From Rhodothermales bacterium (GTDB lineage Bacteria; Bacteroidota; Rhodothermia; Rhodothermales; JANQRZ01), in assembly GCA_039944855.1 (NCBI GenBank), contig JBDUXZ010000023.1:62001-126000 (forward strand): a DNA stretch of 64,000 bases. Direction: 5' to 3'. Shown piece after piece: positions 7,008 through 13,192 of this stretch. Position numbers and translations under genes: made by a program. The notes under the pieces are model-generated. The model saw only the letters and a program-made list of their open reading frames with translations. It had not been told where the DNA came from and ran no database searches. Within the stretch, counting starts at the first letter, position 1, and each line of letters begins with the position of its first letter.

Positions 7008-7859
7008 TTAGCGGCGGTTGCGGCCGGTCAGCGGGTTGTCTCCTACGATGAACGGGGCGACGATGTTGAGCACTTCCTCGGTGGTGAGCGGCTCGTCCCA
7101 CGCCTCGGTGACCTGCTCGGCCCCGATGCCGGAGACGGCCGGCACGTCGATGTTGTACTTCACCGTCTGGTTCATCCCGGCGTAGACCGCCGCGACGGCC
7201 GGAGCCGGCGACTCGTCGAACGGGATCCACCCCTGCGAGCCGCGGAGGCGGCGCACCTTCGAGGCGTGGCGCGCCTCGACGGAGTGGATGCCGAGCGCGG
7301 CCGTCAGCACCGCGCTGGCATCGATAAGGAAGGGGACCTGCCCCTTGTACGCCCGGACGCCGGTGTCCTCGAACGCCTGCGAGAGGAGCAGGAACGTCGG
7401 GTAGTCGTTGAACGGGTCCAGCGTGCCCCCGGCCGTGAAGTCGAAATCCGGGACGGGAGGATCCGGGGGCGCGGGATTCTGATCGCCCGCGATCTGAGCG
7501 ATGAGGAAATCGACGTGATCGGACTCGTGATCCGCGACGATCTCGTAAAAGGCCCGAACGTCATCTGGCATGGAGAGCGTCTTCGAATCGAGCGCCGTGT
7601 TATAGAAGTTCCGCTCGAGGTACTCGAGCGTGAGGGCGAACAGGAGCACGTCGGAGACGGTGCGCGGGTTCGACTGGGCACGGGCGGCGGAGGCGAACAG
7701 CGTGGCCGGGGCAGACGCGAACGCGAGCCCGAGGCCGACTTTGCCGAGGCTGCGGAGGGCGGCGCGGCGGGTGTTCTCCAGGGAGGCCTCCTCCGTCAGC
7801 ACGTCGGAGAGCAGGTCGGAGGCGGTCGCCGTGGGGGTATCGGTCTTGATGGGATTCAT
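7008..7859 (-). CDS. Tat-exported ferritin-like protein (copy 1, non-lipoprotein member)
   Basis: 283 aa from the ATG at 7859. A long N-region leads to a Tat-like signal, TRRAALRSLG plus a hydrophobic stretch ending SAARAQ (about residues 30-62), so export as a folded protein is likely. The rest is a four-helix ferritin-like domain of the PF13668 type. The diiron pattern is intact: Glu in LEYLERNFY, ExxH in DHESDHVDF, Glu in FEDTGVRAYKG, ExxH in HSVEARHASK. An insertion rich in Pro and Asp separates helices 2 and 3. It follows its lipoprotein partner by 66 bp and is closely related to the gene at 9398-10204. The substrate (iron storage, peroxide removal or other) is unknown. Confidence 0.85.
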   Translation of the reverse strand: MNPIKTDTPTATASDLLSDVLTEEASLENTRRAALRSLGKVGLGLAFASAPATLFASAARAQSNPRTVSDVLLFALTLEYLERNFYNTALDSKTLSMPDDVRAFYEIVADHESDHVDFLIAQIAGDQNPAPPDPPVPDFDFTAGGTLDPFNDYPTFLLLSQAFEDTGVRAYKGQVPFLIDASAVLTAALGIHSVEARHASKVRRLRGSQGWIPFDESPAPAVAAVYAGMNQTVKYNIDVPAVSGIGAEQVTEAWDEPLTTEEVLNIVAPFIVGDNPLTGRNRR

Positions 7860-7925
7860 AGTCAGGTCCTCTTCGGGTGTACAGTCCGTGTGGGGCATGC
7901 GGCTGAGCATGCGCGAGCGCGGGAC

Positions 7926-8921
7926 TTACAGGCCGGTGGGCGTGATTTCGTTTTGGATGAACGGCGCGGCTGCTGTGAGCACTTGAGTGGGGGACAACGA
8001 CCGCTCGATGGAAAACCCTCCGAGGTCGTCGCCGCCGGCGAACAGCTCGTCGAACGCGAAGTTGTTCGGGTCGATGATGTCGCGGATGGCCGCGGCGTGG
8101 CGCGCCTCAACGGACACGATCTCGCCGGCGTTCACGAGGGGGTCCACCTGGTTGATGAGGACGCCGGCTCCGTTATAAGCCGCGACGCCGAGGTCCTCGA
8201 AGGTCCGCGCCGTCTCGAGCACGCTCGTCCGGTCGCCGAAGTTGACGGCGGAGAAGTCCGTCCGGAGCCCGCGGATGGGCGTCCCGCCCTGCTCGAGGAT
8301 CTTCGCCTGGAAGAACTCGCGGTGGGCGACCTCGTGTGCGAGGAGGTCGTTGAGGACGTTCTGCTCGTCGGCGTTGAAGATGGTGCCGAACGCGGGGTCC
8401 GCGACGACGGCGGCGTAGAAGGCGGCTTCGAGTTGTTCGAGCGCGTAGGCGTAGTTGAGCACGCCGGTACGCCCCGCGAAGCTGAGTTCGAGCGGGCCGC
8501 CGGGCGCAAGGACGAAGGCCGTCGTTGCGGTCCCACCGTCGGTCACCGTGACCTCCGTCATGTCCGTGACGAAGCCGTTCGTGGACGCGACGAGGGTAAA
8601 CGTCCCCACCGGGAACTCCTCAATCGTGAAGGACCCGTCCTCCTGCGTCATCACGGTGCGGGGGATGCCGTCGTCGTCGAAGGAGATCAGGACGTCGGCG
8701 ATGCCCTCGCCGGTCTCCGAGTCGGTGACGGTCCCGGTGATGGTGCCGAAGTCGCCGGGGACGATGGGGTCGGGCGTATCGGAGTCACAGCCGGCGGCGA
8801 CGAGGACGACTCCGCCGATGCCGGCGAGCTTCAGGAAGGAGCGTCGGCTGGCTCGCGAGTCAAGCTGGGGCGAGGCCGCGTCAAGCTGGGGCTCGGTGTG
8901 GGAGCGAATCAAGTCAGACAT
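7926..8921 (-). CDS. Tat lipoprotein with carboxypeptidase-regulatory-like and ferritin-like domains
   Basis: 331 aa. The signal combines a Tat motif (SRRSFLK, residues 25-31) with a lipobox (VAAGC, Cys45), so this should be a lipid-anchored envelope protein. Residues 58-140 form a carboxypeptidase-regulatory-like beta-sandwich (GTITGTVTDSETGEGI, DGSFTIEEFPVGTFTLVAS). Residues 152-331 form a PF13668-type ferritin domain with the diiron set: Glu in LEQLEAAFY, ExxH in HEVAHREFF, Glu in FEDLGVAAYNG, ExxH in SVEARHAAA. Its paralog at 10260-10955 lacks the beta-sandwich. The ATG at 8921 (MSDLIRS) is chosen because it matches the paralog start. Confidence 0.87.
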   Translation of the reverse strand: MSDLIRSHTEPQLDAASPQLDSRASRRSFLKLAGIGGVVLVAAGCDSDTPDPIVPGDFGTITGTVTDSETGEGIADVLISFDDDGIPRTVMTQEDGSFTIEEFPVGTFTLVASTNGFVTDMTEVTVTDGGTATTAFVLAPGGPLELSFAGRTGVLNYAYALEQLEAAFYAAVVADPAFGTIFNADEQNVLNDLLAHEVAHREFFQAKILEQGGTPIRGLRTDFSAVNFGDRTSVLETARTFEDLGVAAYNGAGVLINQVDPLVNAGEIVSVEARHAAAIRDIIDPNNFAFDELFAGGDDLGGFSIERSLSPTQVLTAAAPFIQNEITPTGL

Positions 8922-9397
8922 AGGTCCGAGGAATGGTGGCTGGTGGAATGTGGTAGAGGTGCCGTCTCGTCTCACGCGGCGGACGGCGCCGGCCCAGAGG
9001 GGAGAGGCTGTGCAGGCGGCCGTGAGGAGTAGGGGTGGCCGACTTTCGGAGTCAAAATAAGGTGAACAAACGCACTGTGTGCTACTTAGTTCGATAGGGC
9101 ACGAAAACCAGACCCATCGCGGGTTCCGGTCTGAGCCCCGCCTCCGCCTCCGATATGGGGCTAGTGGAGCGCGCCATAGGCGAACGTCGGTGGGTTCGGG
9201 CGCCGCCGAGGGGGACGGCGTATCGCGGCCTCCGAGCCGCCGCTACAAACGTGCGACGAGGGGTGGCATTCGCCACCCCCCGTCGGTTCGAGGTGCTACG
9301 CTTGGACCGGGATTGAGCGGACGCACCCACGGGCGCCCATCCCACGCAAGACCTCGAAGGGTCACGGCCCGGAGAGGGCCGGGTTGTGCCGCGCGGA
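8922..9397. other. 476-bp intergenic region between the two ferritin-like pairs
   Basis: No gene with plausible composition was found on either strand. Near the left end is an A/T-richer patch; its minus-strand reading TTATTTTG (complement of 9053-9060) resembles the Bacteroidota -7 element TAnnTTTG and lies about 130 bp upstream of the gene starting at 8921. A stem-loop at 9254-9285 may end the transcript of the right-hand pair. Confidence 0.5.
9254..9285 (-). terminator. Stem-loop downstream of the second ferritin-like pair
   Basis: A 14-position stem with one mismatch around the tetraloop ATTC (arms 9254-9267 and 9272-9285). In the minus direction it is followed by CACGTTTG, which is only weakly T-rich. 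It lies about 113 bp after the stop at 9398. It could terminate or stabilise that transcript. Confidence 0.5.
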
Positions 9398-10204
9398 TCA
9401 GCCGTCGATGAACGGGCCGGCAATCGCGAGCACGTCGTCCATCGAGAGCGTCTCGTCGAACGCCTCCGTGATCTCTTCCACCGTGTAGCCGGAGAGGGCG
9501 TTGACGAGGTTGACCCCGCCCTGCGTGACGTTGTCTTCCCCGGCGTACACCGGCTGGATCGCCGCGATCGCGCCGGGCTGGGCGTTGGGAATCCATCCCT
9601 GATTGCCGCGGATCCGGCGGACGGCGGCCGCGTGGCGCGCCTCGACGGAGTGGATCTGGAGCGCGGCGGTGAGGTAGGCCGGCGTCGTGATGTTCGCGGC
9701 CTGGCCCTTGTAGGCCCGGACGCCGGTGTCTTCGAACGCCTGCGAGAGCGTGAGGAACGTGGCGTAGTCGCCGAACGGATCGAACGGGCCGCTGCCGGAG
9801 CCGTCGCCGCCGGTGAAGTCGAAGGCGTCGTCATCGAACGAGACGGGCTCGCCGCCGGCCGCGGTGATGGCGCTGGCGAGGAACGCGACGTGCGCGTCCT
9901 CGTCGGCGCTGATCCGCTCGAAGAGCGGGCGGTCGGCGGACTCGATCACGCCGGCGTCGAGCCCGAGGCGGTAGAAGGCGCTCTCGAGGTATTCGAGCGT
10001 GAGGGCGTAGTTGAGGATGTCGACGTCGGTGGCGGGGTCGAACCCGTAGTTCGAGGCCATCACTTTCTTCGCCATGCCGAAGAACGGGAGGGCGACGAGG
10101 GCCGCGCCTGCGCTGTACCGGCCGGCGGTGCGGAGGGCGTCGCGGCGGGAGGTCGGCACGTTGCCGAGGGCGTCGTCGAGGTTGCTAAAGAGATCGGTCG
10201 TCAT
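9398..10204 (-). CDS. Tat-exported ferritin-like protein (copy 2, non-lipoprotein member)
   Basis: 268 aa. A twin-arginine stretch, SRRDALRTAGRYSAG, starts at about residue 19, with a hydrophobic core to about residue 45, giving a Tat-type leader without a lipobox. The PF13668-type ferritin domain keeps all expected metal ligands: Glu in LEYLESAFY, ExxH in DEDAHVAFL, Glu in FEDTGVRAYKG, ExxH in HSVEARHAAA. Long segments match the gene at 7008-7859, including FLTLSQAFEDTGVRAYKGQ against FLLLSQAFEDTGVRAYKGQ. It starts 55 bp after its lipoprotein partner and is surely co-transcribed. The ATG at 10204 is the only sensible start. Confidence 0.86.
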   Translation of the reverse strand: MTTDLFSNLDDALGNVPTSRRDALRTAGRYSAGAALVALPFFGMAKKVMASNYGFDPATDVDILNYALTLEYLESAFYRLGLDAGVIESADRPLFERISADEDAHVAFLASAITAAGGEPVSFDDDAFDFTGGDGSGSGPFDPFGDYATFLTLSQAFEDTGVRAYKGQAANITTPAYLTAALQIHSVEARHAAAVRRIRGNQGWIPNAQPGAIAAIQPVYAGEDNVTQGGVNLVNALSGYTVEEITEAFDETLSMDDVLAIAGPFIDG

Positions 10205-10259
10205 GAGGAGTACGAGCTAGAGGAGCACAGAGAGAGTGGACGGGCGGGCGGAGCGGGGA

Positions 10260-10955
10260 TCACGCGTTGATGGCCCGGATATCGTCGATGATGAAGTCGC
10301 TCGCGGCCGTGAGCACGGCGCTCGGGGCGAGGGCGCGGTCGAGCCCGTTGGCATCGATCACGCCGCTGCCGGCGATCGAATTGGCGGAAAGCAAGCTGGA
10401 GATCACCGACGCATGCCGCGCTTCGACGGAGACGATCTTGCCTGCGATCGTGAGGAACGTGCCGTCGGAGAGGTACTGCCCGGCGCCGTTGTAGGCGGCG
10501 ACGCCGAGGTCCTCGAACACCTGCGCCGTGCCGAGCACGCTGGACCGGCTGGCGAAGTCGATGCTGGTGAAGTTGGGCGTGAGGTTCGGGATCGGCGTCC
10601 CGCCGTTCATCGCGATGGCCGCCTTGAGGAAGTCGCGGTGGATGCCTTCGTGCGCGGCGAGGTCGCGGAGGATGGCCTGCTCGTCGGCGTCGAACGTGGA
10701 CGAGAACGCCGCATTCATCACGACGGTCGCGTAGAAGGCCGCTTCGAGCTGTTCGAGCGCGTAGGCGTAGTTGAGCACGCCGAAGTCGTTCGAGAAGTCG
10801 AGCGTGACGACCCCGTCTTGCATATCGTCGGGGTCGTCGGAATCGCAGCCCGCGGCGACGAGGACGGCGCCGCCGAGGCCGGCGAGCTTGAGGAAGGAGC
10901 GGCGGCTGGCTCGGGGATCGGCCGGCGACGCGAAGGGAGAGGCTAGATCAGACAT
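10260..10955 (-). CDS. Tat lipoprotein with ferritin-like domain (short form)
   Basis: 231 aa from the ATG at 10955 (MSDLASP); an ATG six bases upstream is an alternative. The signal has SRRSFLKLAG and lipobox VAAGC (Cys37), nearly identical to the paralog at 7926-8921. The ferritin domain begins at about residue 50 (FGVLNYAYALEQLEAAFY) and retains ExxH in HEGIHRDFL, Glu in FEDLGVAAYNGAG and ExxH in SVEARHASV. There is no beta-sandwich insert. It is first in its pair and lies 194 bp downstream of the STAND ATPase gene, so the ATPase may be its regulator or head an operon with it. Confidence 0.86.
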   Translation of the reverse strand: MSDLASPFASPADPRASRRSFLKLAGLGGAVLVAAGCDSDDPDDMQDGVVTLDFSNDFGVLNYAYALEQLEAAFYATVVMNAAFSSTFDADEQAILRDLAAHEGIHRDFLKAAIAMNGGTPIPNLTPNFTSIDFASRSSVLGTAQVFEDLGVAAYNGAGQYLSDGTFLTIAGKIVSVEARHASVISSLLSANSIAGSGVIDANGLDRALAPSAVLTAASDFIIDDIRAINA

Positions 10956-11149
10956 GAGCATCGAACGGAGAGTGGGTGGACAGAGGGGGCCGACTCGTCG
11001 CGCAGCAAGGCGGGTCGAAGCGGCGTTCTGTCCAACAGGGCGCAGGGGGGCTTGTTCGCCCCAGATCCCCCGCATTGCGCTCAATCGATGCTCAATCCGT
11101 GCTCACTCCATCCCCCGAGGGCGAATAGGCAGCACACCCCGTTCCCGAC

Positions 11150-13192
11150 TCAGGCGGCGAGTTCCCGCTGCCACAGGGCGGCGACGACGTGCTCGATCCC
11201 ACGCTTGAGGTAGCGGCGGAAGCTGCTGAACGGCATGTCGAGCTGCTCGGCGGCCTCGGCCTGCGTGCGCGCCGGGTCGAGGTAGGTCGCGTCGAGGGCG
11301 AGGTAGTACGGGGCCTCGCGCGGCGTCGCGTTGAGCTCCTCGGCGGCCTCGTTGAGCAGGGCGCGCAGCGCCTCCACCCGGTCGCCGCCGGCCGCTTTTT
11401 CGAGGACGAGGCGGGAGCGCAGGAGCGGGCTGTCGGCGAGGTCGTGGGGGCGGGCGTAGTCGCGGAGCGCGTCGCGGACGGCCTCGCCGAAGTCGGGCTC
11501 GCTGAGGACGACGAGGCGGTCCGGCCGCTCCGGCTCGGCACCCGGCGAGGAGGGCAGCCCGCGCTCGGCGAGGCCTTCGAGCCACACGCCGGGCGGGACG
11601 GCGCGCCAGTCGTGCCCGTACACCCCGAACGCTCGGCCGCCGACCTCGAAACCCGCGTCGGGCAGCCGCTGCAGGCCGACGAAGGTGAAGATCATCGCCC
11701 AGAAATCGGGGTCGGCGCACGGGAGGAACGTGTACGCGAGCCCCTCGGTGCCGAGGTAATGGCGGACGGTGGCGACGAAGATGAGGCTCTGCACGGCCGA
11801 CACGTCCTGATAGTCCTCGCGGTCCATCCAGAACCGGAAGACCGTCGCCCGCTCGCCCGGCCGGAGCGGGGCGTGGGCTTCGAGGTGAGCCCAGGCGGCT
11901 TCGGCGCAGGGGTCGGCCGCGCGCTCCTCGGCCGTCGTCGCGTCGAGGGCGAGGCAGAAGAGGAAGCCGGTCGCGTGGCCGTCCTCGTCGCGGAACACCT
12001 GCACGCGCTCGGGCTGAAGCCGGAACCAGTGCGCGGCGATCTCCGCTGCCGCCTCGCCCTCGTGGCCGCTCACGAGGGCTCGCAGCGCGTCCCACTCGTC
12101 GTCGCGCGGCTGGCCGGAGGTCTGAGGCCGCGCCTTCTGCCACTGCCCGCGGAGTTGAGCGAAGAGCGGCTGCACAATCGGATTGTGGCGGTGGAGAAAG
12201 GTGTAGTCGGCAAGCGTGGCGACCTGCTCGCGCTCGGAGCCGGTGTGGAGGAGGCGGCGGGTGTAGGCGGCGCGGGCGCGGTGGTTGAGCGCGGCGAAGC
12301 GTTCGGGGCGGCGCCAGCGAAGGTCAGCGCCGAGCGTCTCGCGGGCGAGGTCGTGGAGGATGAGCCCGTTCTCGCTGGCCTCGACGAACGAGAGGCCACG
12401 GAGCCACTCGAACGCGGCGTGAGTGTCGTCGCGCTCCAGCAGGTCGGCTAGTAACCCCTCGGTGACGACGCGGACGGTCGCCGCCGCTTCGAGCGCCGCG
12501 TGCTCGGCCTCGTCGTCGATCTCCTGCATGAACCGTGTGAGGAGCGTGCCGACGACGTCGGGCGATTCGTCCACCTGAAACGGCAGGCCCGGCTTCCGCC
12601 GGCAGTGGTCGGCGACGAGGGAGAGGGCGAGGGGGTGGCCGTGCGTGAACCGGAGGACGGCGTCGTGCTCGGCCGTCGGGACGCCCTGCTCTTCGAGGAG
12701 CGCGCGGCCCTCGTCGGGCGTGAGGTTGCGGAGGGGGAGGACGCGCGTGATCTCCTGCCAGCCGAGGTCGCCGCGCCACCCCGCGCTCGGCGCGTAGCGG
12801 CCCGCGAGCACGACGATCCACTCCTCGGACACGGTCGGCAGCAGCTCGTCGCGCAGCCAGTCGTCGAGGGGGTGGAGCGCCTCGTACGTGTCGAGGAGGA
12901 GGACGGCGCGCGCGGCGGGGAGCCCGGCGCCCGAAAGAGCCTGCCGCAGCGCGTCGGGCGCGGCGTCGAGGTCCCGCGCGTCGAGGTACGCGGCCGGGAT
13001 TCCGGACTGCCGCGCGAGGTGCTCGAACTCGCGGAGGAGCGACGTCTTCCCCACCCCGCCGGGTCCGTGGAGGTAGAGCACGTGGAACGGCAGGGAGTCC
13101 GAGCCGAGCGCGTGTTCGAAGACGGCGCGTTCCTCTTCGCGACCGACGAAGAGGGCGTGCCGGGCCGCACGAAGACGGTCTTGCAAGGACAT
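11150..13192 (-). CDS. STAND-type ATPase with C-terminal sigma-70-region-4-like HTH
   Basis: 680 aa. Residues 15-250 form an AAA/NB-ARC-like ATPase: the VGREEE entry motif, Walker A GPGGVGKT with K49, and Walker B AVLLLDTYEAL with D101. A winged-helix and helical region follows (LSFVEASENGLILHDLARETL), then a 250-residue segment of unclear fold. The last 55 residues (ALDATYLDPARTQAEAAEQL, then DMPFSSFRRYLKRGIEHV) look like a sigma-70 region 4 or LuxR-like helix-turn-helix. This is typical of signal-transducing STAND regulators that bind DNA once switched on by ATP and a ligand. It sits directly upstream, same strand, of the ferritin-like pairs. The ligand and target are unknown. Confidence 0.8.
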   Translation of the reverse strand: MSLQDRLRAARHALFVGREEERAVFEHALGSDSLPFHVLYLHGPGGVGKTSLLREFEHLARQSGIPAAYLDARDLDAAPDALRQALSGAGLPAARAVLLLDTYEALHPLDDWLRDELLPTVSEEWIVVLAGRYAPSAGWRGDLGWQEITRVLPLRNLTPDEGRALLEEQGVPTAEHDAVLRFTHGHPLALSLVADHCRRKPGLPFQVDESPDVVGTLLTRFMQEIDDEAEHAALEAAATVRVVTEGLLADLLERDDTHAAFEWLRGLSFVEASENGLILHDLARETLGADLRWRRPERFAALNHRARAAYTRRLLHTGSEREQVATLADYTFLHRHNPIVQPLFAQLRGQWQKARPQTSGQPRDDEWDALRALVSGHEGEAAAEIAAHWFRLQPERVQVFRDEDGHATGFLFCLALDATTAEERAADPCAEAAWAHLEAHAPLRPGERATVFRFWMDREDYQDVSAVQSLIFVATVRHYLGTEGLAYTFLPCADPDFWAMIFTFVGLQRLPDAGFEVGGRAFGVYGHDWRAVPPGVWLEGLAERGLPSSPGAEPERPDRLVVLSEPDFGEAVRDALRDYARPHDLADSPLLRSRLVLEKAAGGDRVEALRALLNEAAEELNATPREAPYYLALDATYLDPARTQAEAAEQLDMPFSSFRRYLKRGIEHVVAALWQRELAA

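Follow-up and report, generated by a model that had tools for sequence, protein, structure and literature searches.

The window, the 64,000-nt stretch of DNA analysed here, belongs to a Rhodothermales genome of 4.6 Mb (G000; other G-numbers denote other genomes of the order set). It contains a P-loop ATPase gene, whose product is termed P0001 and which is the only match to this ATPase in its own genome at E ≤ 0.01. On the 3' side of the ATPase gene, four genes encoding Ferritin_2 proteins (PF13668, E values from 4e-33 to 1e-42) follow on the same strand. On the 5' side lie moeA and a recJ-like gene, also on the same strand. The original prediction had placed the ATPase directly upstream of the ferritin-like genes and on their strand, and this arrangement is borne out, the open reading frame itself being on the minus strand. 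The four Ferritin_2 genes stand in tandem at 7008-10961; two carry Tat signals and one a carboxypeptidase-regulatory-like domain. The first of them sits in a longer open reading frame (10260-11084). The features are listed in Table 1.

Table 1. Features of the ATPase and ferritin locus, with positions counted from the first nucleotide of the window.
Feature	Position	Strand	Evidence or remark
STAND-GNAT-sigma4 regulator P0001	11150..13192	-	ORF 13192 to 11150 with start at 13192, confirmed; translation, 680 aa; 24-member alignment with mean column identity of 45%
P-loop STAND-type NTPase part	12293..13150 (about residues 15-300, end approximate)	-	AAA_16, P-loop, GxPLA
Probable GNAT-like fold, putative sensor	11504..12148 (about residues 349-563)	-	Model of C-terminal half, Foldseek, VIA-align
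Sigma-70 region-4-like helix-turn-helix	11159..11377 (residues 606-678)	-	5fgm alignment; TIGR02937
Predicted operator TGAGCA-N5-TGAGCA-N5-TGAGCG, 11-bp period	11078..11105	-	About 117-123 nt upstream of first ferritin start
Ferritin-like 1, Tat signal, first client gene	10260..10961 (start 10955 or 10961)	-	PF13668 E 1.7e-38; TIGR01409 above cut-off
Ferritin-like 2	9398..10204	-	PF13668 E 1.2e-42
Ferritin-like 3, Tat signal, CarboxypepD_reg and Ferritin_2	7926..8975	-	PF13668 E 4.3e-33
Ferritin-like 4	7008..7910	-	PF13668 E 9.8e-35

Among the Pfam models, AAA_16 alone passes its cut-off in P0001, with a match that begins at residue 15. The scores for NB-ARC (12.5 bits against a gathering score of 23.5) and NACHT (14.3 against 26.7) are below gathering, and the protein is therefore named STAND-type and not NB-ARC. 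At E ≤ 0.1, AAA_16 is matched by all 24 aligned members, nSTAND_NTPase5 by 16 and NB-ARC by 15. The P-loop and the Walker B acid are present. Residues G43, G45, G46, G48, K49 and D101 are invariant in the 24 members, and P44 is replaced by M in one. The GxP motif of NB-ARC/NACHT-type ATPases is also present (GHPLALSL), and its residues G185, P187, L188 and A189 are invariant in the same 24 members.

The folds of the middle and C-terminal regions are read from a low-confidence model (mean pLDDT 46.8) that covers the C-terminal half and was built from two sequences. A full-length model of P0001 was poor (pLDDT 39.1) and was left out of the analysis. The helix-turn-helix (HTH) is the better part of this modest model and aligns with region 4 of SigR (5fgm) over 65 of 65 residues, with a Z score of 8.2 and an rmsd of 2.0; according to the aligner's note, a Z near 8 may reflect a common arrangement. 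By sequence the HTH is weak. TIGR02937 matches residues 607-669 at E 0.022 and covers them with its region-4 end only, and Pfam Sigma70_r4_2 is found at E ≤ 0.1 in 2 of the 24 members. Region 2 of ECF sigma factors is absent, with no match in P0001 at E ≤ 1. The LuxR-type GerE HTH is likewise without a match in P0001 at E ≤ 1 and does not appear among the 25 of 37 families listed for the 24 members. Neither the N-terminal OmpR-like domain of SARPs nor BTAD has a Pfam match in P0001 at E ≤ 1. The original prediction of an NB-ARC-like P-loop ATPase joined to a C-terminal sigma-region-4-like HTH is supported by the profile searches and structure prediction that it had proposed as checks: STAND-type features are found, with AAA_16 above and NB-ARC below cut-off, and the sigma-4 domain is weak by profile and visible in the modest model. 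On sequence grounds, the family combines a STAND-type ATPase with a sigma4-like HTH.

The middle of P0001 had been described as matching no known domain. This holds for Pfam, where the region has no match at E ≤ 1, but the low-confidence model looks GNAT-like. A PDB profile search with the region returns nothing at E ≤ 10, and no acetyltransferase is among the 25 of 37 families listed for the 24 members. With this model, Foldseek returns nothing at E ≤ 0.001; its list consists mostly of acetyltransferases, with BCCIP in the top row (E 0.016) and the first named acetyltransferase at E 0.042. VIA-align on the same low-confidence model gives a best Z of 9.4, and most of the best 50 matches listed are GNAT proteins. 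When the middle is compared profile to profile with 11 targets, the best is GNAT, represented by an alignment of the 27 sequences longer than 90 aa out of 30 fetched, at a level that is not significant (probability 3.6%, score 16.3; next ABC, 12.7). The acyl-CoA loop of GNAT proteins has the motif Q/R-x-x-G-x-G/A. At the position judged equivalent, P0001 has Q462-x-x-S-x-V, and Q462 is nearly invariant. Going by the modelled fold alone, the middle of P0001 is probably a GNAT-like domain, and if it is, a CoA-type ligand is a reasonable guess for the metabolite that, under the original prediction, the protein could sense. The operator evidence given below is independent of the status of this fold.

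Homologues of the ATPase occur in 12 of 395 genomes sampled from the phylum and in 26 of the order's 114 genomes. Six plasmid records from Nostoc, Rhodococcus, Kitasatospora and Streptomyces (Cyanobacteriota and Actinomycetota) carry homologues that span at least 80% of the full length, all six deposited solely as 'ATP-binding protein' or 'hypothetical protein'. One relative is found in a Rhodothermales MAG. The viral contigs yielded 600 pattern-matching stretches, none of which encodes a relative, and PHROGs contains no match at E ≤ 0.1. On the Nostoc plasmid (L015, 4486-8670), genes for a TnsA-like endonuclease and an ATP-binding protein adjoin the ATPase gene, which hints at transposon-borne spread.

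Within about four genes of the ATPase, DUF4331 is present in 11 of 33 loci, 10 of which also have a TPR gene. The ferritin-like pair adjoins the ATPase in 5 of 33 loci, on the same strand in G000, G340, G388 and G427 and divergently in G436. An FAD-oxidoreductase cluster is nearby in four of the 33 loci and one SnoaL cluster in four, two of these also with DUF4331. These adjacency counts are lower bounds because the ATPase genes of G200, G404, G407, G411, G412, G417, G423 and G424 are near contig ends. In G423, DUF4331 is beside an ATPase fragment on another contig. On the ATPase tree, the ferritin label requires 3 changes and the DUF4331 label 10. Ferritin_2 and/or DUF4331 are found in 22 of the 26 ATPase genomes and in 4 of the 88 others (p 1e-15). 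By genus, the counts are 16 of 20 with the ATPase and 1 of 29 without it (p 2e-8). The four ATPase-free genomes with one or both families are G414, G437, G430 and G451, the Ferritin_2 match of G430 being below cut-off, and the ATPase genomes with neither family are G003, G030, G179 and G309. The sister genome G414 has moeA followed directly by the ferritin pair, no ATPase, and a degenerate repeat in the gap (L065, G414:C27, 6590-9989). Here the regulator seems to have been lost naturally.

The promoter of the window's ferritin genes contains the predicted operator, a direct repeat of the TGAGCA unit. The sole exact match to TGAGC-N6-TGAGC-N6-TGAGC in the 4.6-Mb genome is the one at this promoter. 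The unit is found with the same 11-bp period upstream of DUF4331, SnoaL and ferritin genes and on the Nostoc plasmid. A three-copy TGAGCA score of at least 15/18 is reached by 13 of 37 client upstream regions; with the window, the place of the unit's discovery, left out, the count is 12 of 36. At any other period from 7 to 23, at most 2 of the 37 reach this score. None of the 32 ATPase upstream regions does so, and autoregulatory operators facing the ATPase gene are thus absent at this threshold. The scan used 69 of 72 anchors, three having been dropped for length, and 3 of the 37 client upstream regions come from ATPase-free genomes. For ferritin-like 3 no operator of its own was found, its repeat score of 10/18 being background. 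Repeats of a different unit, TGAGAG, also with an 11-bp period, are present in the same genome at G000:C37:80713-80750 and C18:3366-3392, and the one on C37 is perhaps an OmpR-type site.

Among the ATPase genomes, ferritin pairs with a recognisable operator are found in six, namely G000, G404, G420 and G427 and, in weaker form, G388 and G436. In five others (G231, G421, G422, G423 and G424) the ferritin pairs are without one. The ferritin operator of G340 is degenerate, and the ferritin gene of G439 is a fragment. G231 and G424 have no convincing operator anywhere in the genome. Clients that carry the operator and are far from the ATPase occur in G000, G340, G219, G404 and G420. According to the original prediction, the ATPase might control the diiron proteins, and the idea was to be given up if the ATPase occurred mostly away from ferritin-like genes. 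It does occur mostly away from them, as the 5 of 33 loci indicate, but control of the diiron genes is still supported by the shared 11-bp-repeat operator that directly precedes them. Adjacency is too narrow a test because unlinked clients carry the operator too.

The consensus of an ungapped alignment of 33 sites is TGAGCA-N5-TGAGCA-N5-TGRTCTG-N5-TGAGCA. A -10-like TAnnnT is often present about 11 bp beyond the closing TGRTCTG-N5-TGAGCA. It lies at column 55 in 16 of the 33 sites and at column 54 in 4, and at no other column from 21 to 60. The same two columns hold TAnnnT in 12 of the 22 sites that were chosen without using the -10, again with no other column from 21 to 60. The window promoter has no TAnnnT at the expected place. 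Judged from its sequence, the operator looks like an activator site that runs into the -35 region. A common operator of TGAGCA repeats at 11 bp, in most cases with TGRTCTG-N5-TGAGCA as its closing part, precedes the partner genes in many genomes.

Two models of the operator, R1 and R2, were used for genome-wide scans; their E values are rough, and scans over more than 40 genomes used stricter filters. R1 is a sequence-only model of 13 DUF4331-operon promoters, including the Nostoc site, and contains no ferritin promoter and no site of G000. Its training sites were located by searching for the repeat unit that had initially been noticed in the window. Across the 114 genomes, R1 has 19 hits at E ≤ 0.001, and all 19 are in the 26 ATPase-bearing genomes. 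Eleven are training sites and eight are new. The new sites precede TonB-receptor genes (G254 and G412), an ECF sigma gene, SnoaL genes, genes for a large secreted protein and an SdrD-like protein, the DUF4331 operon of G000 and the ferritin pair of G404 (1.1e-6). The best values in ATPase-free genomes are 0.0014 in G410 (72% complete) and 0.0019 in G433 (62% complete). Within G000, the DUF4331 operon ranks first (3.1e-6) and the window's ferritin promoter second (0.031). When the window is scanned by itself, the ferritin promoter is the sole match at E ≤ 1 (E 0.00043).

R2 is a wider model of 33 sites, again including the Nostoc site. At E ≤ 0.02 it finds sites in 23 of 27 ATPase genomes, that of G309 probably by chance, and in 1 of 27 ATPase-free genomes (G414) chosen from 88 and not at random; since the training sites of R2 came from ATPase genomes, this comparison is not unbiased and R1 is the fairer test. 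Beyond its training set, R2 recovers the ferritin promoter of G388, a TonB-receptor-like gene in G407, and ArsS in G340 (TIGR04167) and G414 (by resemblance). The site G309:C1:2511401, which resembles coding sequence, was counted as chance or unclear, as were G200:C175 and G231:C1:1231167. The ATPase-free sister G414 is 96% complete and keeps its ferritin pair; its one fair operator precedes the ArsS-like gene (R2 E 0.007). A good-looking site precedes an AhpD-like gene in G433, where no ATPase was found.

Client genes are of several kinds: Ferritin_2, globin, AhpD/CMD-like, a weakly SOD-like lipoprotein, ArsS, DUF3047, DUF4331 and TonB receptors. The lipoprotein client of G404 has no Pfam match and is 34% identical to that of G439, which matches Cu/Zn SOD below cut-off. 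The CMD match in G388 is also below cut-off. The names TonB (G412, G407), ArsS (G414), CHRD-like (G179) and SdrD-like (G219) were given by resemblance or by eye and not by family search. A weaker operator-like site is present before a DUF3047 gene in G000 (C37:155463-155496), and the DUF3047 gene of G388 is also behind a site.

On the plasmids of other phyla, the operator is found in Nostoc before a DUF4331 gene, a site used in training both models, and in two Rhodococcus plasmids; no actinobacterial sequence was used in training R2. The WAY2 plasmid has an untrained site (R2 E 2.7e-6 in 120 kb) that runs from the final codons of the ATPase gene to a point before an FAD-oxidoreductase gene, its first spacer being one base shorter. 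On the PD630 plasmid, an R2 site (E 0.0034) is beside the ATPase and before an FAD-oxidoreductase gene. In the Kitasatospora and Streptomyces loci R2 finds nothing at E ≤ 5, though these members keep the Arg of the recognition helix. A Streptomyces match 2.7 kb from the ATPase, found in a loose scan, is taken as chance. The Arg (R660) is present in 27 of 29 members and is replaced by Tyr in G003 and G030. By R2, these two genomes have no TGAGCA site at E ≤ 0.5, and they have in common an altered element, TCGGCAG-N4-TCGYCTG, on the downstream side of the ATPase gene. This covariation of helix and operator represents one evolutionary event and was spotted by eye.

The simplest account of these patterns is that the repeats are binding sites of the ATPase, which activates the genes downstream of them. 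P0001 is likely a signal-dependent STAND transcription activator that reads 11-bp repeats and whose regulon includes the ferritins, with direct binding, ATP dependence and the signal being presumed. Binding of a ligand to the GNAT-like domain would allow the ATPase to bind ATP and oligomerise. Each repeat would then be occupied by one HTH of the oligomer, with every HTH on the same side of the DNA, and the oligomer would position RNA polymerase at a promoter that lacks a good -35. The predicted regulon in G000 comprises the adjacent ferritin-like genes, an unlinked DUF4331-TPR-TonB operon and perhaps the DUF3047 gene. Clients across the genomes are largely secreted or redox-related, which suggests a stress signal.

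Alternatively, the repeats may be bound by another regulator, either an OmpR/PhoB-type response regulator or an ECF sigma factor, with the ATPase merely a linked or accessory gene. OmpR-type regulators typically bind 11-bp direct repeats, and the different repeat TGAGAG precedes a response-regulator-like gene in G000. In addition, one of the clients in G219 is an ECF sigma gene, and G414 keeps a site without the ATPase. This alternative is unlikely, however, given that the ATPase is the sole protein cluster common to the clustered loci of Rhodothermales, Nostoc and Rhodococcus, that no R1 hit at E ≤ 0.001 falls outside the ATPase genomes, and that the operator differs where the recognition helix of the ATPase differs. 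It is highly improbable that the ATPase regulates nothing but the adjacent diiron proteins. DUF4331 is near the ATPase in more loci than adjoin ferritin genes, and the unlinked DUF4331 operon of G000 has the same operator; these points outweigh the same-strand adjacency in G000, the few changes of the ferritin label on the ATPase tree and the perfect operator at the window's ferritin promoter. Least credible is an NLR-like STAND immune or defence protein with chance neighbours, for although STAND ATPases are common in defence and the family is patchily distributed with homologues on plasmids, the sole PADLOC match at E ≤ 1 (mad1, E 0.032) spans 26 residues, no homologue is found at E ≤ 1e-5 in 50,697 phage records, and the C-terminal HTH, the shared operators and the co-occurrence with the same gene families all point elsewhere.

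Read as a transcription activator, P0001 can be compared with several known systems. MalT/LAL regulators have a STAND ATPase, a C-terminal LuxR-type HTH and a TPR-like sensor, and form ligand- and ATP-dependent oligomers on repeated sites. P0001 shares the STAND ATPase with C-terminal HTH and may share the mode of oligomerisation, but its HTH is sigma4-like and its sensor position holds a probably GNAT-like domain. The modelled HTH has the fold of SigR region 4; unlike SigR, P0001 is without sigma region 2, and its region-4-like HTH would serve as the operator-binding domain. AfsR and other large SARPs are ATPase-gated, with operator repeats one helical turn apart near the promoter (PMC10936776). 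These SARP-NOD-TPR proteins resemble P0001 in joining a STAND/NOD ATPase to a DNA-binding domain and in the direct repeats 11 bp apart near a promoter, as also seen at the predicted operator of P0001. They differ in their N-terminal OmpR-like and BTAD domains, where P0001 has a C-terminal sigma4-like HTH, in the sequence of the repeat, and in their TPR, which has no match in P0001 and is set against its probably GNAT-like domain. PimR (SARP-LAL) is a large ATP-binding regulator that recognises three heptameric repeats with 4-nt spacers and differs from P0001 in its DNA-binding domain, its repeat (CGGCAAG) and its single target gene pimM (PMC5930380). P0001 would operate in the manner of a large SARP or PimR with other building blocks, and it is not a member of either type because their defining DNA-binding domain was not found.

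A narrow literature search found no example of this architecture. The chances seem about even that the family is a separate class of large STAND activators, with a degenerate acetyltransferase-fold sensor and a borrowed sigma-factor domain as operator reader, which moves between phyla together with its 11-bp-iterated operator and serves varied stress and redox modules (ferritin-like, DUF4331-TPR-TonB, ArsS/AhpD and FAD oxidoreductase). Binding on consecutive turns of DNA may here stand in for sigma region 4 where the promoter has no -35. The predicted operator suggests a function and a regulon for a family found in three phyla. It would also join DUF4331, DUF3047 and secreted Ferritin_2 pairs, all orphan families, in a single regulon, and this suggests a stress or redox role common to them; the term DUF4331 was found in no paper of the literature searched.

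In G219, an operator directly precedes an ECF sigma gene, which is followed by a kinase-like gene (L144, G219:C58, 4975-5708), an arrangement that could turn the regulon into a cascade.
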